41,912 bases of DNA from an uncultured Bacilli bacterium. Its GTDB lineage: Bacteria > Bacillota_I > Bacilli_A > RF39 > UBA660. The stretch spans positions 1 to 41,912 of the forward strand of contig CALVRH010000010.1 in the NCBI GenBank assembly GCA_944358535.1. The letters are read 5' to 3'. The notes under the pieces were generated by a model, which searched no databases, was not told the DNA's origin, and was given only the letters and a program-made list of their open reading frames with translations. The stretch's first letter is position 1. Each line of letters starts with the position of its first letter. A program made the position numbers and the translations under genes. Of this stretch, positions 5,424 through 35,734 are shown piece after piece.

Positions 5424-6347
5424 ATGAATATAATTGATAAGAAGTTTAAAGAGCTTACAGATGATATAAAGGATAAGGAAGAATTAGAAATCTTTTATCA
5501 CATTAAAGAGCGTTTTTTACTTGTAAATGAAAAGACAAGAAAGTCTTGTGAAGATTTTTTCAATAAGTTTTTGTATTGGGGTAAGTTAGATTTTAAGAAT
5601 AAGGATTTTGAATTTTTTGAGCTAAAAGCCAAGACACTTAAAAACCATATTGATGATTTTATATGGCTTTATGATAATTTATGTGATTATCAATCTAAGA
5701 AGGTGTTGCTGGGGACTTTAGATAATTGGTATAACTGGAATTTTACGGTTTTAGCTTCGGTGATGCAAAATCTATATGATGATTATTTTGATTTAGATTT
5801 AATTCCAAAGTGTGAGACGGAAGTGTTTGTAGATTTGGGAGCTTATATTGGTGATAGTACTTTATCTTTTATAAAAAATTATGGAACTGATAGTTATAAT
5901 AAGATATACTGCTATGAAATAAGTAAAGAGAATTTTGAATATTTAAAGACTAACCTGAAACCTTATGAAGATATAGATTTAAGATTAAAAGGCGTTAGTG
6001 CAGAAAACGGGACAATGTATTTAAAGGAAAATGGCGAATTATCTTCTACACAGGTTAGTGATAATGGTGATATTCCTATTCAGATGGTTACGTTAGATGA
6101 TGATATAAAAGAAGAGATTACAATTATTAAAAGTGATATTGAGGGCTCTGAGCGAATGGCTTTGATGGGAGCTAAAGGTCATATTATGAATGATCACCCT
6201 AAACTTTTATTTTCTATTTATCACAGTAATGATGATGTATGGCAAATTCCTAGGATGATTAAAGAAATGGATGAAAGTTACAGATTTTATTTAAGGTATC
6301 ATGGCGGAATGATTTATCCAACGGAAATTACTTTAATTGCACTTTAA
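5424..6347 (+). CDS. FkbM-family SAM-dependent methyltransferase
   Basis: 307 residues. The C-terminal half (about 130-305) is a Rossmann methyltransferase. Motif I is VFVDLGAYIGDS (about 137-148), the acidic residue after strand 2 is in YCYEIS, and the FkbM motif IIKSDIEGSE is at about 235-244. The N-terminal 130 residues are helical and do not match a domain I know. FkbM enzymes make O-methyl groups on sugars, polyketides or other small molecules; the acceptor is unknown. ATG 5424 has GGTGAT upstream; an in-frame TTG three bases earlier is less likely. It is transcribed alone and divergently from natAB, and ends at a shared bidirectional terminator. Confidence 0.8.
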   Translation: MNIIDKKFKELTDDIKDKEELEIFYHIKERFLLVNEKTRKSCEDFFNKFLYWGKLDFKNKDFEFFELKAKTLKNHIDDFIWLYDNLCDYQSKKVLLGTLDNWYNWNFTVLASVMQNLYDDYFDLDLIPKCETEVFVDLGAYIGDSTLSFIKNYGTDSYNKIYCYEISKENFEYLKTNLKPYEDIDLRLKGVSAENGTMYLKENGELSSTQVSDNGDIPIQMVTLDDDIKEEITIIKSDIEGSERMALMGAKGHIMNDHPKLLFSIYHSNDDVWQIPRMIKEMDESYRFYLRYHGGMIYPTEITLIAL

Positions 6348-6377
6348 AAAGTTTACGATGATTTTCGTAAACTTTTT
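6346..6377. terminator. bidirectional terminator
   Basis: An inverted repeat of AAAAAGTTTACGA with TCGTAAACTTTTT separates the convergent FkbM-like and FtsX-like genes. A-rich and T-rich flanks allow it to act on both strands. It overlaps both stop codons. Confidence 0.85.
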
Positions 6378-8802
6378 ATTCAACTGATTTTAATGATTCA
6401 ATCATATCAACTTTTCTTAATTTAAAGTAAGTTACTACTTGCATGATAAGTGCGAAAACTAAAGTTAAAACACTCGCATAGACAAAGCTTAAAACTTTGA
6501 CCATTTTTAAGAACATGATGTCATCGCATTCGATGAATCCAATAATTACTCGGTGAAGTGGTACTGATATTATTAGACCGATAATAATACCAATAATAAC
6601 GACAACTAATGTTTCTCTATAGATATATTCATTAGATTCTCTACCGTTAAATCCTAAGACTTTTAAAGTGGCTATTTCTCTTTGTCTTTCACTAATATTG
6701 ATAGAAGTTAAATTATATAAAACTGTTAGAGCTAATAGAGATGATACAACGACAATTAATATGACAATGTTGTTTAAACCTTTGATTTCATTATTGGCGC
6801 TTTCTTTCAAATCATCTGAAAAGTTGACAGTCATGACACTACCTGTATTTAAAATATCTTTAGCTTTAGTGCCTTTTTTATTTTGGGATGCGACCATATT
6901 ATAAGTTATATCTTCATTAAATATTTTATTATATAAGTCTTTAGAAATATATATATAATTACTTATATAGTTTTCGGCGATGCCAATTATTTTTAATTTT
7001 CTTTCTTCAGCATCTTCATTTTGAATAGTTATGTTGTCCCCTACTTCGAGATTTAGTTTATCGGCTATTTTAGGGGTAATGATAACGCCATCATTATTTA
7101 AAGTTAAATGATCACCAGTTTTATTATCTTGTAAGTTAAAATAGTCTTCAAAAGTTTCTCCATTATTTTTAGGGATAACGACGTATACTGATAATGATTC
7201 ATCATCACCATATTTTAAGTCGTATGAATACTGATTAAATAATAATGGATTTTTAATTTTATCATTAATATCTGTTAGGTCTTGAGATGTTTTGACATTA
7301 TTATTTAAAACTATCATATTATCATATGTGAATAGTTCTCCATATTGTTTATCACCAACTCCGTTGATACTATCTTTAAGGGCAAAGCCGATGAAGATTA
7401 AGAAAGTACAGCCCGCTGAACCGATTAGAGTCATAAAAACTCTTTTTTTATAACGGAAGATATTTCTCGTGGTGATTTTTGAAGAAAATGATAGTTTAGA
7501 CCAGAAGAATTTTATTTTTTCTAAAAATATAGTTTTACCACTTTTAGGACTTTCTGGTCTTAATAAGTTAGCTGGTTTCTCTTTTAAAGATTTACGGCAA
7601 TTCCAAACAGTAACAATAGTCATAAGAGTAATAGCGACAAGTAAACAGCCAGTAAATAAATTTATATCAAAATAATATTCTAAATCTGGGATGTGGAACT
7701 GGAAGATATTATAGACAAGCGGTGGGATAAATATAGTTCCTATTAAATAGCCGATAATTGCTCCAATGATTGTTCCTGATAAAACGTATCCTAAATAGTT
7801 TAAGGTGATTCTGGTGTTGGATATTCCCAATGATGAAAATGTACCCATTTCAGTTCGCTCTTCGGTAATCATTCTAGTCATAGTGTTTGAGGTCATAAGG
7901 AAAACAATTGAAACAAATATTAATGGGATTATAGTAGCGATGGTTGTTACTTGGAAGTACTGATTTTCTAATGTGTTATAGCCGGTTACTTCCGCATTTC
8001 TGCCGGTGATATACCAGCTTGAATCTAAGTCTGTCATTTCTGCATTTGTATTTCCTGTTAGCATGGCTGATTTAATTAAAGCATCTTTTACTTCGGTTAA
8101 TCTAGCTTCTTCTCTTTCACTTTGAATGCTTTCTACTTCGTTTGTTAATTCATCTAGGAAATTTTCATAAGCTTTAGAATATGGAATGTCATCTTCTGTT
8201 TTTTTACCGGTTATATATATTTCGGTATAGGTATCTAAATTGAATGCAGTTTTAGGAACATAAATATATGAGTGGAGTTTTCCGTTTCCGATATTGGTAT
8301 ATCCATAATTAGTACCGGTATATAACGGTGAAATGATTGTTCCAACAACTTTAAATTCCTTGGTTTTAATGGTGCTTTCATCTGAGGTTATTTTGATGGT
8401 GTCACCAACTTTATAAAATGCACTATCAGCTAAACATTCATTATCGTTTTTAGGTTTTCTTCCACTAATTAATTCATATTGATTTATGTTTTCGGTTATG
8501 GAATGAACTTTGATAGCTTCTTCATTACTTAAAACATAAGCCGAATAAGATGGAATGGCATCAGAAACGGTATCTAATTTTTTTAAAGCATTTACGTCTT
8601 CATCAGTAAGTCCTAGAGTACTTCTTACTGTTAAATCCATTAAATTGGTGTTTTCGTAGTAATCGTTTTGGACTTTTTTGATGCTTGGAACTGAGCTTTG
8701 GATTCCAGCATAAAAACCAATACCAATTAAAACTATTATTAATAAGGAAAAGTATCTTCCAAATGAATGTTTTAATTTTCTAATGGTATTTTTTAATAGC
8801 AT
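6376..8802 (-). CDS. ABC transporter permease with two FtsX domains
   Basis: About 808 residues from ATG 8802, which has GGTGAT at good spacing and follows the stop of the ATPase gene by only 4 bp; an earlier in-frame ATG at 8844 lies inside the ATPase gene and is rejected. The layout is typical of large FtsX/MacB-family permeases: a membrane segment near 20-40, an external domain of about 250 residues, three membrane segments, a second short segment near 440, another external domain, and three C-terminal segments around the block ERQREIATLKVLGF. Such pairs export peptides or lipoproteins or act as mechanotransmitters. The substrate is unknown. Confidence 0.85.
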   Translation of the reverse strand: MLLKNTIRKLKHSFGRYFSLLIIVLIGIGFYAGIQSSVPSIKKVQNDYYENTNLMDLTVRSTLGLTDEDVNALKKLDTVSDAIPSYSAYVLSNEEAIKVHSITENINQYELISGRKPKNDNECLADSAFYKVGDTIKITSDESTIKTKEFKVVGTIISPLYTGTNYGYTNIGNGKLHSYIYVPKTAFNLDTYTEIYITGKKTEDDIPYSKAYENFLDELTNEVESIQSEREEARLTEVKDALIKSAMLTGNTNAEMTDLDSSWYITGRNAEVTGYNTLENQYFQVTTIATIIPLIFVSIVFLMTSNTMTRMITEERTEMGTFSSLGISNTRITLNYLGYVLSGTIIGAIIGYLIGTIFIPPLVYNIFQFHIPDLEYYFDINLFTGCLLVAITLMTIVTVWNCRKSLKEKPANLLRPESPKSGKTIFLEKIKFFWSKLSFSSKITTRNIFRYKKRVFMTLIGSAGCTFLIFIGFALKDSINGVGDKQYGELFTYDNMIVLNNNVKTSQDLTDINDKIKNPLLFNQYSYDLKYGDDESLSVYVVIPKNNGETFEDYFNLQDNKTGDHLTLNNDGVIITPKIADKLNLEVGDNITIQNEDAEERKLKIIGIAENYISNYIYISKDLYNKIFNEDITYNMVASQNKKGTKAKDILNTGSVMTVNFSDDLKESANNEIKGLNNIVILIVVVSSLLALTVLYNLTSINISERQREIATLKVLGFNGRESNEYIYRETLVVVIIGIIIGLIISVPLHRVIIGFIECDDIMFLKMVKVLSFVYASVLTLVFALIMQVVTYFKLRKVDMIESLKSVE

Positions 8803-8806
8803 ATTA

Positions 8807-9505
8807 TCACCACACAATCTCTTTTGGATCTTTTGGATTTTCATTTATTTTTATATCGGTGACAGTACCATTTTTAACGGTTATTACTTTATGAGCTACT
8901 TCGGCAACCAACGAGTTATGAGTGATTACAATAGTTGTGATATGGTATTTATCACAAACTGTTTTTAAAAGTTCTAAAATTTTACTTCCTGTATCACTAT
9001 CTAAGGCTCCGGTTGGCTCATCACATAGTAATATTTTAGGGTTTTTAGCTATAGCTCTAGCGATAGCGACACGCTGTTGCTCACCACCTGATAATTGTGA
9101 TGGAAAGTTATTTAATCTATGTCCTAGACCAACTTGCTTTAATATTTCTTTTGGCTTAAAAGCTTTTTTAGATAATTGACAAGCTAGTTCAACGTTTTCT
9201 AAGGTAGTTAGGTTTTGAATTAAATTATAAAATTGAAAGACAAATCCGATATCATATCTTCTATATAGTAATAAATCTTTGGCTTTAAATTTAGCAATGT
9301 TTTTACCATCAACTAAAATATTTCCTGATGTTGGGTTATCCATACCACCTAACATATTTAAAATGGTTGTTTTTCCAGCACCACTAGGACCTAATACAAC
9401 AACAAATTCACCTTCTTCGATTTCAAATGAGCAATCATCAACTGCTTTAACTGGAGTATCCCCTTTATAAATTTTTCCAACTTTATCAAATTTTATATAT
9501 GCCAT
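8807..9505 (-). CDS. ABC transporter ATP-binding protein, MacB/LolD type
   Basis: 232 residues. Walker A GPSGAGKT is at 39-46, Q-loop VFQFYNL near 89-95, signature LSGGEQQRVAIARA from 138, Walker B ILLCDEP at 158-164 followed by TGALDS, and an H-loop in VITHN. The sequence is canonical for ATPases paired with FtsX-type permeases. The permease gene starts 4 bp after its stop, so the two form an operon. A GGAGGG Shine-Dalgarno precedes ATG 9505. Confidence 0.9.
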   Translation of the reverse strand: MAYIKFDKVGKIYKGDTPVKAVDDCSFEIEEGEFVVVLGPSGAGKTTILNMLGGMDNPTSGNILVDGKNIAKFKAKDLLLYRRYDIGFVFQFYNLIQNLTTLENVELACQLSKKAFKPKEILKQVGLGHRLNNFPSQLSGGEQQRVAIARAIAKNPKILLCDEPTGALDSDTGSKILELLKTVCDKYHITTIVITHNSLVAEVAHKVITVKNGTVTDIKINENPKDPKEIVW

Positions 9506-10470: not shown

Positions 10471-11421
10471 TTACTGTATTTGAAATGGGTCTGATTGGGT
10501 GCCGGTTCCTCCTGTGATTTTGATATCTGAAGATAATGTGGTTACAGGAAGTATAACTAGATAATTTTCATTTACATTTCCGCTACCAAAATTTCTATAG
10601 CCTGGATTCACGTGGTGCACATTGCGAATGTAACCAGCATCAGGAGACAATGTCCACCAATCAACATAATCTTTCGGAAATATCCATGTTGTGCTTGGGC
10701 AAATACTAAAATTACTATTAATTTTACTCATTGTTCCACAACTACTTTGATTACTATTACTTCTTATATATTCACTAGCTGTAATTAAAGCAATTTTGCC
10801 CTTCCATTTAGTGCTATTTTCATCATTTATTTGATCTGTTAAATCATTATTATAGGCGGTTACTGCGCCAATATTATATGTTGCTGAAACTATTTGATTT
10901 TGTGCTTCATTAGTTAAACTAATATAATATGTTTCATTTAAATATGTATTTAATGTAGCTGGCATAGCCCAATTATTACTATTTGATATATTCCATGATA
11001 TATTATTGGATGTATTTATATTTGTCATTCTCATTATTTTTATTGTTCCATCTGAATTTATAGATATTATTCTCCAACCGGCGGTTTCATTATTAAATGT
11101 TATATAATTATTTGGACTTGCACCTTTATAGGTGTATTTTCCATCTTCATATTCATCCTCATATAAACCATCTCCTGATGTAACAATATCTGTATTATCT
11201 AATATTGAATCACCTGCTGTTGGTTCTTTTTTACATGCAGTATATAGTTCATCAATTGCTTCCTGTACATTCATTGATTTTAAACCACTCTCACTATTAT
11301 CGTATGTTACATCATTACTTGGAAAATAAGTTGCGGCAGAAGCACCAATAGTTCCAAACAATAATGCAGTTATAACAAAAATGGATATTCTACTTTTTAG
11401 AATCTTCTTTATCCTTTTCAT
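10471..11421 (-). CDS. secreted surface protein, paralogue of the one at 34847
   Basis: 316 residues. Residues 1-30 are a basic start plus a hydrophobic segment (ISIFVITALLFGTIGASAA), a signal peptide or anchor. It is followed by YFPSNDVTYDN, SGLKSMNVQEAIDELY, then a variable middle, then a WWTLSP block (about residue 256) and a GGTGTQSDPF end. The WWxxSP block recalls the C-type-lectin-like ends of DUF6273-like secreted proteins; that similarity is from memory and weak. The second copy shares the N-terminal 60 residues and the last 20 almost exactly but differs between them. It is divergent from an XRE regulator gene 103 bp away. Function unknown; probably cell-surface display or binding. 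Confidence 0.75.
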   Translation of the reverse strand: MKRIKKILKSRISIFVITALLFGTIGASAATYFPSNDVTYDNSESGLKSMNVQEAIDELYTACKKEPTAGDSILDNTDIVTSGDGLYEDEYEDGKYTYKGASPNNYITFNNETAGWRIISINSDGTIKIMRMTNINTSNNISWNISNSNNWAMPATLNTYLNETYYISLTNEAQNQIVSATYNIGAVTAYNNDLTDQINDENSTKWKGKIALITASEYIRSNSNQSSCGTMSKINSNFSICPSTTWIFPKDYVDWWTLSPDAGYIRNVHHVNPGYRNFGSGNVNENYLVILPVTTLSSDIKITGGTGTQSDPFQIQ

Positions 11422-11524: not shown

Positions 11525-11950
11525 ATGATTGAAAACAGATTAAAAGAATGTCGCGAGGAATTAGAGATGACACAAACTGAGCTTGGATATGTATTTGGTG
11601 TACAAAAAGCTACAATATCTAATTGGGAGAACGTTTATGAGATGATGCCACTAAAAAAATTGGTTAAGTTTTCAAATTTATATGGTTTTTCTTTAGATTT
11701 TATTTTAGGTTTAACTAGAGAAAATAAGAAATATTCTGATAAGATAAAATTAGATAAAAAGGTTGTTGGTGAGAAACTTAAGGTTTTAAGAAAGTCATTA
11801 AAGTTATCACAACAAGTTATTGCGGATGAATGTGGAATTTCTAGGGCAACATATTGTCATTATGAGATTGGAATGAATTTAATTACTACCCTAACCTTAT
11901 ATTCAATATGTAAAAATCATAAAATATCGATTGATGAATTTTTAAGATAA
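11525..11950 (+). CDS. transcriptional regulator with two XRE-type HTH domains
   Basis: 141 residues from ATG 11525, which has AGGTGA upstream; the open frame extends back to 11381 but that part lies across the divergent promoter and has no start signal. HTH 1 is about residues 3-57 (MTQTELGYVFGVQKATISNWE) and HTH 2 about 75-130 (LSQQVIADECGISRATYCHYE). Two XRE domains in tandem in one small protein is uncommon and would let one chain bind two half-sites. It faces the secreted-protein gene at 10471, the same arrangement as at 34847-36074, so it most likely controls that gene. A bidirectional terminator follows. Confidence 0.85.
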   Translation: MIENRLKECREELEMTQTELGYVFGVQKATISNWENVYEMMPLKKLVKFSNLYGFSLDFILGLTRENKKYSDKIKLDKKVVGEKLKVLRKSLKLSQQVIADECGISRATYCHYEIGMNLITTLTLYSICKNHKISIDEFLR

Positions 11951-15732: not shown

Positions 15733-16479
15733 TTAATCACCTACTATATATTTCATGATTTCTTTTATTCTTGGTTTGTCATTTTTTAATTCTAAGTAGC
15801 CTAGTAAAGCTTCTAATCCCGTCGCTTTTTTATAGGTTATTATACTAGTGTTTTTAGGGTGTGACAATACTTTGTGATTTTTTCCTCTTTTTACTATGTC
15901 TAATTCGCATTCAGTTAAAAAGTTATTATTAATCATTTTATCTAAAAAATTACTTTGAGCTTTGGCTGAAACATAACTAATAGCCATGGTTTGTAAATCT
16001 TTTACTTTAAAATTTCCTTTGATAGTTAAATATTTTCTGATATAAAGTTCATAGACAGCATCTCCTAAATATGCGAGAGCAAGTGAGTTCATGTTTAAGG
16101 TGTTTAAATGATTTATTATGAGTTTGATATCTTTTCTATCTTTTTCTCTATTTAAATTTCTTTTTAATTCTAAGACTTCTTCAGGGGTTTGGACTAGATA
16201 ATTATCTATTTTAGTTCCTTTAAAATTTCCATAATAGTGAGTACTAAAATTAATTACATCATTTATAAAATATACTTTATAGCCATCTATTTCTTTTTCG
16301 AAGGTACATTCAAAATTTTTTAAGAGATAGTTATTACATTCTTTGGTGACTGCGATATCAATATCATGGCATGTTTCTTTTATCCCATTTAAAACTAAGG
16401 CGGCAGATCCTATGATGATAAAATCTTGATTATCTAAATGGTATTTTTTTAAATTATCTAGGATATCATTTTTATTCAT
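15733..16479 (-). CDS. mrnC: nucleotidyltransferase-like domain fused to Mini-ribonuclease III
   Basis: 248 residues in one open frame. Residues about 1-118 look like a nucleotidyltransferase-fold domain: IIIGSAALVLNGI (GS at 24-25), DID at 39-41, and a KDRKDIKLI end as in AbiEii-type and related NTases. Residues 120-248 are a complete Mini-RNase III: LALAYLGDAVYELYIR with catalytic D130 and E134, then KGKNHK-type RNA-binding and GLEALLGYL. Mini-III matures 23S rRNA ends. An internal ATG (Met120) could start a free Mini-III but has no Shine-Dalgarno. The gene overlaps rbgA by 8 bp upstream. The fusion is unusual; the NTase substrate is unknown. Confidence 0.8.
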   Translation of the reverse strand: MNKNDILDNLKKYHLDNQDFIIIGSAALVLNGIKETCHDIDIAVTKECNNYLLKNFECTFEKEIDGYKVYFINDVINFSTHYYGNFKGTKIDNYLVQTPEEVLELKRNLNREKDRKDIKLIINHLNTLNMNSLALAYLGDAVYELYIRKYLTIKGNFKVKDLQTMAISYVSAKAQSNFLDKMINNNFLTECELDIVKRGKNHKVLSHPKNTSIITYKKATGLEALLGYLELKNDKPRIKEIMKYIVGD

Positions 16480-17353
16480 AGTCCTCTATCCTATCGAAGG
16501 TAACGCCTTTAATATAGCCATTTTTTATATCACCAATAATTAAGGAAACTACTTTATCATAGTCAATGTTTCCCCCTTTTATAAGGCAGCCTCTTTTTTT
16601 GCCAATTTTTTCAATACTATTCACGATATCTTCATCTAAATAATCTAAATTATATCTTTCTTTTAGAATGTTTGGATAATATTTTTCTATGGTTTGTAAA
16701 ATATAACAAGCAATATCAAACAAAGGTAATGTTTCTTCTTTAATAGCTGTTAAAGCTGCTAGATTTAAAGCTTCTTTTTGATCTAGTTTTGGCCATAAAA
16801 CACCTGGTGTGTCTAATAGTTCTATTTTATCGTTTATTCTTATCCAATTTATGTTTTTGGTGACTCCAGGAATATTTCCAATACTAGCAACTTTTTTGCC
16901 GGCCAAGCGATTAATTAAGGTGCTTTTACCAACATTAGGAACACCTATAACTAAGACTCTAGCTTTTCTATTTAATAAACCTTGCCTTTCTCTTTTTTCC
17001 CATTTTTCTTTTAAGAGTTTTTCAGTGGCACTGAATATTGGTTTTAAGTTACTATTATTTTCTAAATTAATTAGAACAACTGTATAACCTTTTTTTTCAT
17101 AGTACTTTATCCATTTATTAGTTTCTGCTTTATCACATAAATCGGCTTTTGTCATAATCATGAGTCTTGGTTTATCTTTAGTTATTTCATCAATGTCGAT
17201 TATTTTAGATGATTTTGGCATACGACTATCAACTACTTCGTAAATGATATCGATATATTTCAAGTTTTCTTTAATTAGTCTTTTAGTTTTGGCCATATGA
17301 CCTGGATAATAGTTGATGTTTCCCTTTTGGAAACCTTTTTCTTCATTTGCCAT
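16472..17353 (-). CDS. rbgA: ribosome biogenesis GTPase RbgA
   Basis: 293 residues. The GTPase motifs are circularly permuted, as in the YlqF/RbgA family: G4 TKAD (68-71) precedes G1 GVPNVGKS (137-144), with the G2 threonine in PGVTK and G3 DTPG (171-174). The start INYYPGHMAKTKR is diagnostic. RbgA is needed for late assembly of the 50S subunit. ATG 17353 has AAGGAAGTGAT upstream; a GTG at 17362 falls inside it. It is the first of four coupled genes (rbgA, NTase-mrnC, rlmB, sigH-like), a ribosome-maturation operon. Confidence 0.93.
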   Translation of the reverse strand: MANEEKGFQKGNINYYPGHMAKTKRLIKENLKYIDIIYEVVDSRMPKSSKIIDIDEITKDKPRLMIMTKADLCDKAETNKWIKYYEKKGYTVVLINLENNSNLKPIFSATEKLLKEKWEKRERQGLLNRKARVLVIGVPNVGKSTLINRLAGKKVASIGNIPGVTKNINWIRINDKIELLDTPGVLWPKLDQKEALNLAALTAIKEETLPLFDIACYILQTIEKYYPNILKERYNLDYLDEDIVNSIEKIGKKRGCLIKGGNIDYDKVVSLIIGDIKNGYIKGVTFDRIEDYE

Positions 17354-17394
17354 TACAATCACTTCCTTGTTTTTAATATATTTTATATAAATGT

Positions 17395-18024
17395 TTATAA
17401 TCTCATTTGTGGTTTTTCACCAGTTCTTTTAAACGGTATTTCTTCATTATTTAAACATGCAGTTATATTGGTAATTTTATACCAACCATTATTTTCGTCC
17501 CAAAAAACAAAACTTATTTCATCCGAATCGGCAGTGTTTTCTGGGCCAACCGTTAATAAACCTCCAAAAAAATATTTCTTTTCACCGTTTTTAGGTTGAA
17601 AATCTCTTTGTAATGTTTCTACCATTTTTAAATCTTGATTTGAAAAGTAACGACATGTTCCACCAATATAAGGATGAGTATGCACATGTGCAATGCAGTT
17701 ATATTTTTTACCATTAATTGCATTAATTAACTCTTTATACATTTGTGATATTTCACTTTTTTCATTCATATTGATATCAAAGACTCTCTTTGTCGGAACA
17801 TAATCGTCATAACTGCTAGGAATATCAAAATAGATTACATTCGGTTGGATTTCTCTGCCATACAATATAGTTCCATACTCTAATTCCTTATTTCCACTAA
17901 AAGCACACAAATTAATATCTCCTGATAATCTTGTATAGACTTCTTCAGATAAAATGATTCTACTATGTGGTAATTCTCTAAAGTTAAATTGATTTGTTGC
18001 TCCTGTTAAAATATCATTGCTCAT
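17395..18024 (-). CDS. JAMM/MPN-type metalloprotease
   Basis: 209 residues from ATG 18024, with AGGAG nine bases upstream. The JAMM zinc site is complete: a glutamate in ELEYG (E49), H115-T-H117 in HVHTHP, and S128-x-x-D131. The gap between the second His and Ser is ten residues, slightly longer than the usual seven. JAMM proteases cut isopeptide or peptide bonds after ubiquitin-like C-termini; in bacteria they occur in CBASS, ubiquitin-like conjugation systems and other islands. No E1, E2 or ubiquitin-like gene lies beside it here. A 165-bp repeat separates it from the DUF1016 gene upstream on the same strand. Confidence 0.75.
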   Translation of the reverse strand: MSNDILTGATNQFNFRELPHSRIILSEEVYTRLSGDINLCAFSGNKELEYGTILYGREIQPNVIYFDIPSSYDDYVPTKRVFDINMNEKSEISQMYKELINAINGKKYNCIAHVHTHPYIGGTCRYFSNQDLKMVETLQRDFQPKNGEKKYFFGGLLTVGPENTADSDEISFVFWDENNGWYKITNITACLNNEEIPFKRTGEKPQMRL

Positions 18025-18058
18025 AATATTCAATCTCCTCTCTTTCAATTATTATGGG

Positions 18059-18224
18059 GTTTACCTTGCGGTATCAACTAAAATAGTTTACCTCTTTTTT
18101 GAATAAAAATTGATCATTTTTGCTATTTTCTGCTGTTTATTTGAGAAAATGTGCAAGATCTAAAATCTCACAATCTCTTTATTTATAAAGATTTCGCAAA
18201 GGGGTTTACTAAATCGGTATCAAG
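18059..18224 (-). repeat. intergenic repeat copy A (about 166 bp)
   Basis: It is closely similar to 19301-19464. Both copies begin on the minus strand with TTGATACCGATTTAGTAAAC and end with GTTGATACCGCAAGGTAAAC, so the two ends of each copy are themselves short direct repeats (TTGATACCG, 4-5 bp, GTAAAC). The interior holds a conserved hairpin (TGTGAG with CTTGCA here; TGCGAG with CTTGCA in copy B, a change that keeps pairing). It fills the gap between the DUF1016 and JAMM genes. Confidence 0.9.
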
Positions 18225-18239
18225 CATTGAATCGGACTA

Positions 18240-19256
18240 TTATTCATTTTCATCACCACTTTCTATATCTATATGAAGATTAATTTCTTCTTCTGTTGGC
18301 AATTTATCTAATATATCTTTTGGTATATATTTCTTTAGTTTATAAGATGATACTCCGATTGGAAGATTTGTTCCTTTAAGCGACCATTCTACACTTAATT
18401 TATTTTTTTCTTTACAAAGTAGTAAACCAATTGTTGGATTATCAATTTCTTTTTTTAACGTTTCATCAATAGCTGTTACATAAAACCCTAATTGACCAAT
18501 ATATTCTGGCTTAAATGAAGTGGCTTTTAGTTCGACAACAATATAGCATCTTAGTTCTAAATGATAAAACAATAAATCAATATAGTAATCCCTATCTTCC
18601 ATTGAAATTTTATACTGATTGCCCACAAAACTAAATCCTTTTCCTAGTTCAACTAACAAATTTTTAATTTTAATTAGTAGTTCATTTTCTAACTCCTGTT
18701 CTTTATAATCATTTTTTAATGATATAAAATCAAAAATATATGGATCTTTTATAATATAATTTGCTAAATCAGAATTATCTTTAGGTAAAGTTATTTCAAA
18801 ATTATTATCACTTGTACCAATTCTCAGATGATAATTCAATTCGATTTGATGAACGAGCATTGATCTTCCCCAACCGTTTTCTATTATGCCTTGCAAATAA
18901 ATCTTTCTGGTTTCTTTATCCTTTACTTTATCCATTAAGACAACATTATGTCCCCACGGAACTTGTGCAACAAGTTGTTGCATAACTTCATCATCTTTAT
19001 ATTCCGTATAAAATTTTTTCATATATTTCAAGTTTCTTACAGAATAACCAGTAGCATTTGGATATTCTAATTTTAATTCTCTGGCTACTTCATCGATAAA
19101 TTTATTACCATATTCGTAATTATCATACAAAATTTTACCAAGTCTAAAATATAATTCAATTAAATTATGATTTACTTGTATTGCAGTTTTTAACCTAGTG
19201 ACTTTTATATCTGATTTTATAATGTTAATAATTTGTTTAAAGTTTTCTTCTAACAT
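18240..19256 (-). CDS. DUF1016 / YhcG-type PDDEXK nuclease domain protein
   Basis: 338 residues from ATG 19256, with AAAGGAGGG upstream; the frame runs on to 19319 but that extension lies inside the repeat. The N-terminal half (1-150) is the DUF1016 helical domain (GYSVRNLKYMKKFYTEY, WGHNVVLMDKV). The C-terminal half is a PDDEXK nuclease fold with D227 (IDLLFY), E242-L-K244 in VVELKA and Q255 in GQLGFY. Relatives occur in accessory and restriction-modification islands; direct activity data are few. It is flanked on both sides by copies of the 165-bp repeat, which suggests it moved or is controlled as a cassette. Confidence 0.85.
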   Translation of the reverse strand: MLEENFKQIINIIKSDIKVTRLKTAIQVNHNLIELYFRLGKILYDNYEYGNKFIDEVARELKLEYPNATGYSVRNLKYMKKFYTEYKDDEVMQQLVAQVPWGHNVVLMDKVKDKETRKIYLQGIIENGWGRSMLVHQIELNYHLRIGTSDNNFEITLPKDNSDLANYIIKDPYIFDFISLKNDYKEQELENELLIKIKNLLVELGKGFSFVGNQYKISMEDRDYYIDLLFYHLELRCYIVVELKATSFKPEYIGQLGFYVTAIDETLKKEIDNPTIGLLLCKEKNKLSVEWSLKGTNLPIGVSSYKLKKYIPKDILDKLPTEEEINLHIDIESGDENE

Positions 19257-19300
19257 AAATTCCCTCCTTTCTTTATAAGATTTCAATAATATTAAGTAGA

Positions 19301-19464
19301 GTTTACCTTGCGGTATCAACTAAAAATTTTACCTTATTTTTTAATAAAATTTACTCATTTAGTTCATTTTTGCAGTTTATTTGAGAAAATGTGCAAGTTT
19401 TAAAACCTCGCAATTTCTTTATTTTTAAGGATTTCACAAAGGTGTTTACTAAATCGGTATCAAG
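19301..19464 (-). repeat. intergenic repeat copy B (about 164 bp)
   Basis: The second copy of the 18059-18224 repeat. On the minus strand it starts 3 bp after the stop codon of the RhuM remnant and ends about 45 bp before the DUF1016 start. The outer 20-bp ends are identical or nearly so to copy A; the centre has diverged to roughly 75-80 percent by eye. Confidence 0.9.
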
Positions 19465-19467
19465 AAG

Positions 19468-19655
19468 TTAATATTTAGTTTTTGAAAATTCTCTTAAAAT
19501 ATAAGTAGCCCATCTTCTAAACCCTATTGCTCTATCAGAATTGACTCTATATCCAACAGAAATAACAGCATCTAAATTATAGTATAGTTTTTTCTTTTTA
19601 CTTTCCTATTTCCTTCTTGTTGAACTACCGAGAATTCCTCGGCAGTTGAATTTCA
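19468..19655 (-). pseudogene. RhuM-family gene remnant
   Basis: The frame directly downstream of the TGA at 19653-19655 reads on without a stop to TAA 19468-19470. It contains AEEFSVVQQEGN, LYYNLDAVISVGYRVNSDRA and FRRWATYILREFSK, which are the diagnostic blocks of RhuM-family proteins. The full family is about 330 residues; only about 60 residues from the middle survive, with no start. It is in the same frame as the DinD-like piece upstream, separated by a single TGA. Confidence 0.75.
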
Positions 19656-19922
19656 ATCAAGTTCATAATCAAGAACTTTCCTTTTGGCAGTTTTACCTAA
19701 TTCTATCATTTTGTTGGTTTCAACAAAATGATTAAGTACATTAAAATTGCTATTTTCACAAGATGTTATAGCTTTCTCTATTACTATTTTAAAGTTTCTC
19801 CACTCTTTATACTCCAATACTTTTTGTAATTCACGTGCATACCAATATTCGTTTCCATATTCATCTATATGCATTATATTTTCAAAAATGTTGTTAGTAT
19901 GATTAGTACTAATTTTCTTCAT
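19653..19922 (-). pseudogene. 5' fragment of a DinD-like (BRO-N type) gene
   Basis: 89 residues with an AGGAGGG Shine-Dalgarno before ATG 19922. It has YGNEYWYARELQKVLEYKEWRNF and the DinD-type block AITSCENS, then VETNKMIELGKTAKRKVLDYEL. In DinD-like proteins this last block is followed by RYACYLIVQNGDPRK and about 180 more residues; here it stops at a TGA and joins RhuM sequence. It may still be translated as a short BRO-N-like peptide. DinD-type proteins are linked to DNA-damage responses and phage antirepressors. Confidence 0.75.
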
Positions 19923-20096
19923 TATTCCCTCCTTCTATTTATAAATGTATAAAAACTCATTTTTCTAGTTTTTTATTTTATAAGCTAGAGATGGTTTGGC
20001 ATAAATATAGCTCGCATAATTAATATTTGATTTTTTATTCATACTTATGACATTCCCATTTAAATCCATTTCATTATATCATAATTTAAGATAAAA
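19923..20096. other. intergenic region without a gene
   Basis: A 174-bp AT-rich gap. I see the ribosome binding site of the DinD-like gene and no convincing ORF or RNA. Confidence 0.5.
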
Positions 20097-20119
20097 GAAA
20101 AAGTAGAATAAATCTACTT
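20097..20119 (-). terminator. terminator of tsaC
   Basis: AAGTAGA/TCTACTT stem with a 5-nt loop, then T-rich sequence on the minus strand; the stop TAG at 20114-20116 lies inside the 5' arm. Confidence 0.8.
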
Positions 20120-20710
20120 GATATTATTAGGAAAATCTTTAATAATTTGATTAGCTACAGTTTCTTTTCTTATAATTATAATTTTTTCATTTTCTATTTT
20201 AATAATGGAAGATGGTTCACTATTAATGATACCGGCTTTTTCAACATAGGAAATATATTTTAATAAGTCTTTATCAACCATTTCAGGGTTTGTGATTGTA
20301 TTTTGACCAGAGATATTGGCACTTGTCGAGATTATTGGGTTTCCAACTTCTTGAATTATTTTTTTTAGGTTTTCATTATTTGGCATTCTAATTCCAACTA
20401 AGTTACTACCAGCGGTTATTTCATCACTTATTTTATCGTTTTTATGAAGTAAAATTGTTAATTTGCCCGGCAAGTATTTTTGAATTATTTTGTTTTCCAA
20501 GGGGCTTAAATCTTTAGTATATTTTTTTAACATATTTAGACTATCAACTAGTAATAGTAATGGTTTATTTTTATCTCTTTGTTTACACTTATAAACTTTA
20601 TGGATGGCTTTTAGATTATTCATGTCAGCGGATATACCATATACGGTGTCGGTTGGAATGATGACAAGATTTCCTTTTTTGATTTCACTGACAATCTTTT
20701 TTATGTTCAT
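20114..20710 (-). CDS. tsaC: L-threonylcarbamoyladenylate synthase (YrdC domain)
   Basis: 198 residues, a YrdC domain without the extra Sua5 C-terminal domain. It has IPTDTVYGISAD at 18-29, YKCKQRDKNKPL (the KxR motif that binds ATP/threonine), the PGKLTILL strand, VGIRMP and ISTSANISG. It makes threonylcarbamoyl-AMP from threonine, bicarbonate and ATP, for the t6A modification at position 37 of ANN-decoding tRNAs. The partners TsaB, TsaD and TsaE are not in the window. AAAGGAGTGA precedes ATG 20710. It ends a short minus-strand operon with the two genes upstream. Confidence 0.93.
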   Translation of the reverse strand: MNIKKIVSEIKKGNLVIIPTDTVYGISADMNNLKAIHKVYKCKQRDKNKPLLLLVDSLNMLKKYTKDLSPLENKIIQKYLPGKLTILLHKNDKISDEITAGSNLVGIRMPNNENLKKIIQEVGNPIISTSANISGQNTITNPEMVDKDLLKYISYVEKAGIINSEPSSIIKIENEKIIIIRKETVANQIIKDFPNNIK

Positions 20711-34846: not shown

Positions 34847-35734
34847 TTATTCAACGATGTATGGATCAGATTGGGTACCTGTACCACCTATGATTTTGAC
34901 TTCAGATGAAAGGTAGAGAGTTGGTCTAATGGCTTGTTCCTTGCTTACAGAAGTGCGATAAATAGATCCAGAAGAATCAATATACCATACGTTGGAAAAA
35001 TATGCACTAATTGTCCACCAGTTTGCATTATAGTTTAACCAATTATTAGTTCCATATGCTTGTACTGAACTAGTTCTTTGATATTCATATCTAGATGGTA
35101 AAGCAATATACATTTCTTTATTACCACCATTATTTTTTTCTAACCAAACTAGGTCTGCAATACTTACATTTGTTCTAGTCGCACTACCAGTGCCCCAAAG
35201 ATGTGAAACAATTTGATTTCTTGCTGTTATATTTAAATTATTATAGTAAGTGTCATTTAAATATTCACTTAAAGAAGAATACTCAAACCCAGCATAATCA
35301 GGATAGCTATCATCCCATTTCATATTTCCAATACTATTTATTCGTACTATTTTTATTGTTCCATCACATTCAATTGACATTATTCTCCAACCAGCTTGTT
35401 CATTATTAAAAGTTATATAATTGTTTGGATTGGCTCCTTTATAAAAATATCGACATTCAATATCATCAATATATAATCCATTGCCCGAAGTGACAATAGG
35501 TACATTATTCAACAATTCTTTTCCTCCGCTATCGGATGTTTTGCACGTATTATAAAGCTCATCTATAGCTCCTTGTACATCAGTACTTTTAAGTCCACTT
35601 TCAGTGTTATCATATGTAACATCATTACTTGGAAAGTATGTGGCAGCTGATGCACCTATAGTTCCAAATATTATGGCTGTTAATATGCATATAAATATTC
35701 TGTTTTTTAGAATTTTTTTTATTTTTTCTTTCAT
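34847..35734 (-). CDS. secreted surface protein, paralogue of the one at 10471
   Basis: 295 residues with the same plan as the gene at 10471: basic start and hydrophobic segment (IFICILTAIIFGTIGASAA), YFPSNDVTYDN, SGLKSTDVQGAIDELY, a divergent middle, WWTISA near residue 235, and a GGTGTQSDPY end. The first 60 residues are nearly identical to the other copy, whereas the middle is not. The middle is rich in Tyr, Asn and Ser, as in exposed binding surfaces. It is divergent from a single-XRE gene 106 bp away. Function unknown. Confidence 0.75.
   Translation of the reverse strand: MKEKIKKILKNRIFICILTAIIFGTIGASAATYFPSNDVTYDNTESGLKSTDVQGAIDELYNTCKTSDSGGKELLNNVPIVTSGNGLYIDDIECRYFYKGANPNNYITFNNEQAGWRIMSIECDGTIKIVRINSIGNMKWDDSYPDYAGFEYSSLSEYLNDTYYNNLNITARNQIVSHLWGTGSATRTNVSIADLVWLEKNNGGNKEMYIALPSRYEYQRTSSVQAYGTNNWLNYNANWWTISAYFSNVWYIDSSGSIYRTSVSKEQAIRPTLYLSSEVKIIGGTGTQSDPYIVE

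Follow-up and report, generated by a model that had tools for sequence, protein, structure and literature searches.

The window analysed here, 41,912 nucleotides from an uncultured member of the Bacilli, contains a short gene array ahead of rbgA that appears to have been built from small mobile gene cassettes. The non-coding repeats in this array are best read as the left ends of the cassettes, which would insert serially at the start of rbgA. Judged from the displaced, in-frame rbgA 5′ ends that stand before the repeat copies, each cassette would comprise a 165-bp left end, usually one or two accessory genes, and a new rbgA ribosome site, start codon and first codons. The model as a whole, in which a serine recombinase stacks cassettes at the rbgA start, is very probable on the sequence evidence.

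Two direct, non-coding copies of the repeat, 165–170 bp in length, are located at 18056–18226 and 19299–19466 (84% identity, E 2e-48). A preliminary description of this DNA had reported two repeats of about 165 bp in the same orientation, filling the gaps between genes and bounded by four short sites, and these observations were confirmed. The repeats lie between consecutive minus-strand genes, and the four sites are exact, each end of each copy carrying a short direct repeat on the minus strand, TTGATACCG-N5-GTAAAC or TTGATACCG-N4-GTAAAC. The next-best match to the repeat in the genome has an E value of 1e-4 and falls within a coding gene, and weak matches in C9 and C12 of the same genome proved to be coding or unconvincing once the sequence was read. 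Besides the two copies described earlier, a third, diverged and shorter copy is present at about 19930–20015, where it matches the left end of locus L190. The bases immediately 5′ of each copy are rbgA 5′-end remnants rather than a random spacer.

In the gene sense, which is the minus strand for all features of the array, the order is Sua5 (20114–20710), a decayed DinD/RhuM gene, repeat, a DUF1016 nuclease gene, repeat, the gene for a JAB-like protein, and rbgA. An extended −10 promoter-like sequence, TATGATATAAT, is found at 20073–20083 and a similar motif occurs upstream of rbgA in 9 of 31 loci; it is probably the original rbgA promoter, stranded by insertions. Scans for promoters and terminators gave no useful signal, the DNA being rich in AT. 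The left outer junction of the array is formed by the original rbgA 5′ remnant at 20016–20042 (ATG..., MNKKSNINY). Cassette 1 follows with the third left end (19930–20015, inner boundary approximate), which aligns with that of L190, and with a decayed gene at 19464–19922 that terminates in the rbgA remnant ENFQKLNINF. This cargo has a DinD/Bro-N amino end (19653–19922) and then an out-of-frame, RhuM-like carboxy fragment, read by eye, and is a decayed chimera. Cassette 2 begins with the first repeat at 19299–19466, made up of an attP-type half-site, a 120-bp body and an inner site. Its cargo is a DUF1016/YhcG PDDEXK nuclease (18240–19256; PF17761, PF06250), and its right end is a displaced rbgA 5′ end at 18225–18254 (MKMNNSPIQ, crossover, C), the intact equivalent of which is found in L064. 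Cassette 3 has the second repeat as its left end (18056–18226). It encodes a protein with a JAB/MPN-like HxHTHP...SxxD motif, recognised by eye (17395–18024), which gave no Pfam match even at E 1. The right end of cassette 3 (17310–17380) now supplies rbgA with its ribosome binding site, its start codon and its opening codons as far as the crossover codon; it is near-identical to the rbgA start of L062, with identity falling at the crossover. The target gene itself, rbgA (ylqF), encodes a ribosome-assembly GTPase and occupies 16472–17353.

The rbgA remnants identify the target. An in-frame rbgA 5′ end with its Met, cut at the same codon, lies directly before 77 of 99 testable copies, and the remaining 22 are mostly preceded by the same rbgA sequence with stops or frameshifts. 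The remnant peptides end at Ile-Asn-Trp/Cys or Ile-Gln-Cys, the point from which intact RbgA goes on with Tyr-Pro-Gly-His-Met. Their start classes, for example MDNRQNSTN, MNENKTN and NEEKGFQKGS, are common to intact rbgA genes across genera, which suggests that every insertion leaves the former rbgA start behind and brings in a replacement. One such start, of the MKMNNxxIQ type, precedes several left ends in different genera (L064, L067, L069 and the window at 18225–18254) and comes after a DUF1016 gene in three of these (L064, L067 and the window), which suggests that right-end types move along with particular types of cargo. At the cut, 86 of 90 cases show the dinucleotide TG. In the window, the cassette 2/3 junction has TG and both outer junctions have TA; strict dinucleotide matching gives no explanation for the latter, which counts against the model, and it is possible that several of the window cassettes entered as a single block. 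The crossover codon is TAT (Tyr) both in rbgA (17309–17311) and in the oldest remnant (20016–20018), and TGG in nearly all relatives.

The repeat family extends well beyond this genome. Within the family, 39 of 193 genomes gave a BLAST match to the repeat; a profile compiled from 52 repeat copies raised this to 86 of the 193, spread over 73 of 148 genera, with arrays of up to 12 copies. This spread, together with DUF1016 being one of many cargoes, refutes the simple local duplication of DUF1016 that had been named as the competing explanation. Sampling of 296 genomes across the class yielded just two matching genomes from outside the family. Most named records that contain the core pattern are metagenome-derived genomes filed as uncultured Bacilli or Tenericutes; Candidatus Coprosoma and Candidatus Onthousia are also represented. 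A viral origin was weighed and set aside: five core-pattern matches were found in IMG/VR, one of which (L248) scores like a true copy and four of which are weak, and a single distant recombinase turned up. The largest array, in genome G155, has 12 copies ahead of rbgA; L111 has eight, and L068 and L173 have seven each. Place and orientation are fixed: among the copies listed on contigs that also carry rbgA, weaker copies being left out, 73 of 73 are upstream of rbgA on the same strand, and the nearest listed copy lies at a median of 1490 bp from the gene. Copies closer to rbgA match the consensus better (one-sided permutation p 0.0008), a polarity consistent with entry of new cassettes at rbgA, although the largest array, G155, displays no such trend.

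Comparison between genera delimits the unit. Relative to L062, a locus of another genus (G000, the window genome, versus G001), the left end of cassette 3 is 99% identical from the crossover to just past GGTAAACCCC, the genes that follow are unrelated, and identity resumes at the rbgA ribosome site and first codons before dropping at the crossover codon. A comparison with L064, also from a different genus, gives 90.0% identity for the DUF1016 cassette across its 1253 bp from one crossover to the other, with upstream sequence at 50%, the level of unrelated DNA, and rbgA at 74%. In L064 this cassette abuts an intact rbgA (...ATTCAATG, crossover, GTACCCAGG), while in the window the next left end begins at the same exact point (...ATTCAATG, crossover, CTTGATACC); the two loci represent the unoccupied and occupied forms of one site. 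L097 and L098, from different genera, share a 2586-bp unit that is 97.4% identical, with upstream sequence at 51.5% and rbgA at 66.8%, and this unit carries genes for a 406-aa large serine recombinase and a KilA-N protein.

Could such patterns arise with no site-specific recombination? Left ends and rbgA starts are repeated sequences and thus potential homology, and the case of G000 and G001, in which unlike cargoes follow left ends that are 99% identical, fits cargo exchange by homologous recombination. Such shuffling leaves unexplained the rbgA 5′ ends cut at one codon before 77 of the 99 copies, the recombinase clade beside the sites, and insertion between genomes whose rbgA genes are just 67–74% identical, and as a full account it is improbable. 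As a caveat to the serine recombinase model, arrays that already possess left ends could exchange cargo by homologous recombination. Arrays in other genera and inter-genome homology bounded by the crossover point lend strong support to the earlier guess of recombination sites that insert or swap whole gene cassettes. That guess recognised the cassette sites and missed the rbgA target, the rbgA remnants and the recombinase.

Bounded cassettes (n = 101) have a median length of 1339 bp (range 0.4–4.7 kb) and clean ends; 88% of their sequence is coding, and 98% of this coding sequence is in the gene sense. One gene is present in 52 and two in 27, so that 79 of the 101 hold one or two. A recombinase is present in only seven, which suggests that most cassettes would be moved in trans. 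Their 184 predicted cargo proteins group into 101 clusters, the top ones being RhuM (23), Bro-N (14), recombinase (9), DUF1016 (7) and DinD-like (6). Profile matches also include acetyltransferases, deaminases, phosphatases, HTH proteins and candidate defence families. At 11925–13574 in L068, a cassette that also has a broken serine recombinase encodes a protein with a reverse-transcriptase domain (PF00078, E 1e-7), possibly a reverse transcriptase of the defence type.

These compact units bear on a further alternative, that arrays grew by accretion of deleted conjugative elements, each cassette being the relic of a full element at rbgA and trans-mobilised cassettes being nonexistent. In G155, G114 and G003 the site is indeed shared by elements of conjugative type that possess this left end together with a pair of recombinases, and conjugative elements insert at the rbgA 5′ end in streptococci (PMC4701971, PMC6079316). 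Accretion is nevertheless unlikely in view of the short length (median 1.3 kb), high coding content (88%), one or two co-directional genes and clean ends of the cassettes, and of a recombinase-free DUF1016 cassette that is homologous in its entirety, core to core, in two genera. The latter indicates that the cassette moved as such.

The outer half-site of the left end is composed of TG-C/G-TTGATxxxGATTTA followed by a 9-bp motif at positions 16–24 from the core, the place of the zinc-domain motif in serine integrase attP half-sites (PMC3783163). By sequence only, the traits of an attP site of about 50 bp are all found, namely inverted half-sites, a distal 9-bp motif at 16–24 and a central dinucleotide. 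A near-perfect mirror of the half-site is seen on the rbgA-like side of the junctions in L067 and L071 (GGTTTACAAAATCGGTATCAA CTGC TTGATACC). No clear zinc-domain motif was seen in the rbgA half of the target, nor in several right-end types, a point against the model. The 9-bp motif varies by copy (GTAAACCCC, TTGCAACCC, TTAAGAACA and GTCAAGACC, among others), and, within one copy, the inner site varies along with the outer one. At least eight of nine bases agree in 43 of 94 copies, compared with a mean of 8 and a maximum of 12 copies for shuffled partners (20 shuffles), a correlation among related, non-independent copies that carries no clean probability. The inner motif lies 10–11 bases after a TG, an attB-like spacing, given that the motif of attB stands some 5 bp further inward than that of attP; when the sites are aligned on TTGAT the shift is just 1–2 bases, and the register is ambiguous. 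The inner site was also searched as an insertion point, in the form of hybrid junctions, and none were found. In L044/L072 an rbgA remnant directly adjoins the inner site, which is more readily explained by a deletion between the two TTGATACCG copies.

The enzyme linked to these sites is a large serine recombinase. In L067, the product of 5799–6998 has resolvase, recombinase and zinc ribbon domains (PF00239, PF07508), the combination in one protein inside the element that characterises serine integrase elements. Relatives of 399–412 aa were found with the repeats or directly before rbgA, at 67–90 bp from it in L099, L103, L104 and L105, and one sits inside the 97.4% identical core-to-core unit of L097 and L098. 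The short clade ends about 50 residues past the zinc ribbon, and a low-confidence predicted structure (pLDDT 65, pTM 0.37) has no long coiled coil. The serine integrase coiled coil has been linked to directionality (PMC3783163); on the basis of this model we speculate that so compact a protein could show weaker directionality. At E 1e-60 no short-clade member was detected in the window genome, a point against the model, so its array may be inactive or may depend on a recombinase supplied in trans; four PF07508 genes are located elsewhere in this genome, in open frames of about 600–660 codons. In a second arrangement, a longer recombinase pair (566 and 522 aa, G155) is positioned just before rbgA and ends a large element whose other end is the same 165-bp end. 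Conjugation genes were recognised by eye, and a ParB gene was profile-tested in a similar element of L068. No tyrosine integrase was seen at the array ends. In G114:C10, two serine recombinase pairs (6125–8870 and 44318–47097) are separated by about 38 kb that includes a left end, apparently two large elements in tandem at one site.

On the serine recombinase model, the cassette would exist, at present or in the past, as a circle. Its attachment site would consist of the outer half of the repeat and, joined to it, the right end with its copy of the rbgA 5′ end. Strand exchange by the large serine recombinase would join this site with the chromosomal rbgA start at the Ile-Asn-Trp codons, across TG. 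Insertion would displace the old rbgA 5′ end as a remnant and give rbgA a new ribosome site, start codon and first codons, so that the essential gene survives intact and the restored landing site can receive another cassette. Arrays with the newest copies closest to rbgA would result from repeated rounds. Recombinase-free cassettes would be moved in trans, the predicted actor being the ~406-aa enzyme carried in its own cassette or, alternatively, the recombinase pairs of conjugative elements that use the same site. Cargo may be expressed from the left end.

Conserved TTATAAAT and ATCTTGCA blocks are located between the sites, ahead of the cargo genes, as would suit a riboswitch or other conserved regulatory RNA duplicated in front of accessory genes, a reading the preliminary description had also offered. 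The repeat has no Rfam match, its folding as a single strand is modestly better than that of shuffles (z −1.5 to −2.0), and linkage to rbgA is strict. The hairpin noted earlier, with its C-G to U-G change, can be drawn, but covariation over 52 copies is not above shuffles and RNAalifold gave no consensus structure. A regulatory RNA is very improbable.

Integrons are the textbook route for collecting single genes in arrays and depend on one enzyme family and a folded DNA site. Like integrons (IntI, attI, attC), the rbgA arrays consist of short, mostly single-gene cassettes in one orientation, with a fixed recombination end per cassette, most lacking a recombinase, with growth at one end and highly diverse cargo. 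A true integron with unusual attC sites would account for these likenesses. Its folding inverted repeats are not found, the ends being direct and the same folding results giving no conserved structure, and the linked enzyme is a serine recombinase, itself cassette-borne. The sites are double-strand-type half-sites, unlike folded attC, and the landing site is the 5′ end of a housekeeping gene, rebuilt by each cassette. That these are true integrons is very improbable. With attC-type folding absent and the enzyme from another family, the system was classed as a serine-recombinase cassette array at rbgA. It is integron-like in collecting genes and apparently moved by a large serine recombinase rather than by IntI and attC.

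Other systems resemble it in part. The SCC elements of staphylococci use Ccr serine recombinases and insert serially at rlmH. They share with the rbgA arrays a serine recombinase, a single chromosomal site rebuilt per insertion, tandem insertions and some elements without ccr; they differ in being far larger, in targeting the 3′ end of rlmH with ccr genes, where the target here is rbgA, and in having no 165-bp end. CIMEs and IMEs, cis-mobilisable or mobilisable elements, are alike in that recombinase-free units are flanked by att sites common to a resident conjugative element, as is observed here, and unlike in that the present units are single-gene cassettes in long arrays, together with a minimal 2.6-kb recombinase cassette. 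Streptococcal conjugative elements are known to insert at rbgA by means of tyrosine integrases (PMC4701971, PMC7168690, PMC6079316). Those ICEs (Tn5253, Tn5252/Tn1549-type; PMC6079316, PMC4701971) occupy the same gene end and preserve the protein, but are large and rely on tyrosine integrases (PMC4701971), in contrast to the serine recombinases and the 0.4–4.7 kb arrayed cassettes found here. Our search, which covered the open-access literature, uncovered no report of gene-cassette arrays built by serine recombinases, nor any of a serine recombinase at rbgA.

The arrays may represent a second, independently evolved integron-type system, in which a compact serine recombinase captures recombinase-free single-gene cassettes at a self-renewing landing site in an essential gene; we consider this proposal evenly balanced. 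If it is true, selection for rbgA would keep the entry point intact and perhaps the array transcribed. Here the outcome familiar from integrons is apparently reached through a serine recombinase and a housekeeping-gene start that is rebuilt, among uncultured Bacilli of the gut and in about half of the genera sampled. Cargo resembling candidate defence families (DUF1016, RhuM, DinD and the reverse transcriptase), with acetyltransferases, deaminases and many unknowns, makes the arrays a ready catalogue of accessory genes. A serine recombinase site that naturally takes multiple insertions would be of interest for genome engineering, and the origin of cassette-collecting systems would become testable in a second lineage.

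Two further features were observed. In L148 (G155:C4, about 94–103 kb), type I restriction-like genes, read by eye, are located inside an element before rbgA. Here two opposed specificity-like genes flank a tyrosine-recombinase-like gene, an arrangement that by eye looks switchable. In the window, 10885–11417 and 35204–35727 are 74–80% identical in DNA sequence, lie about 24.3 kb apart within coding genes, and are apparent paralogues.
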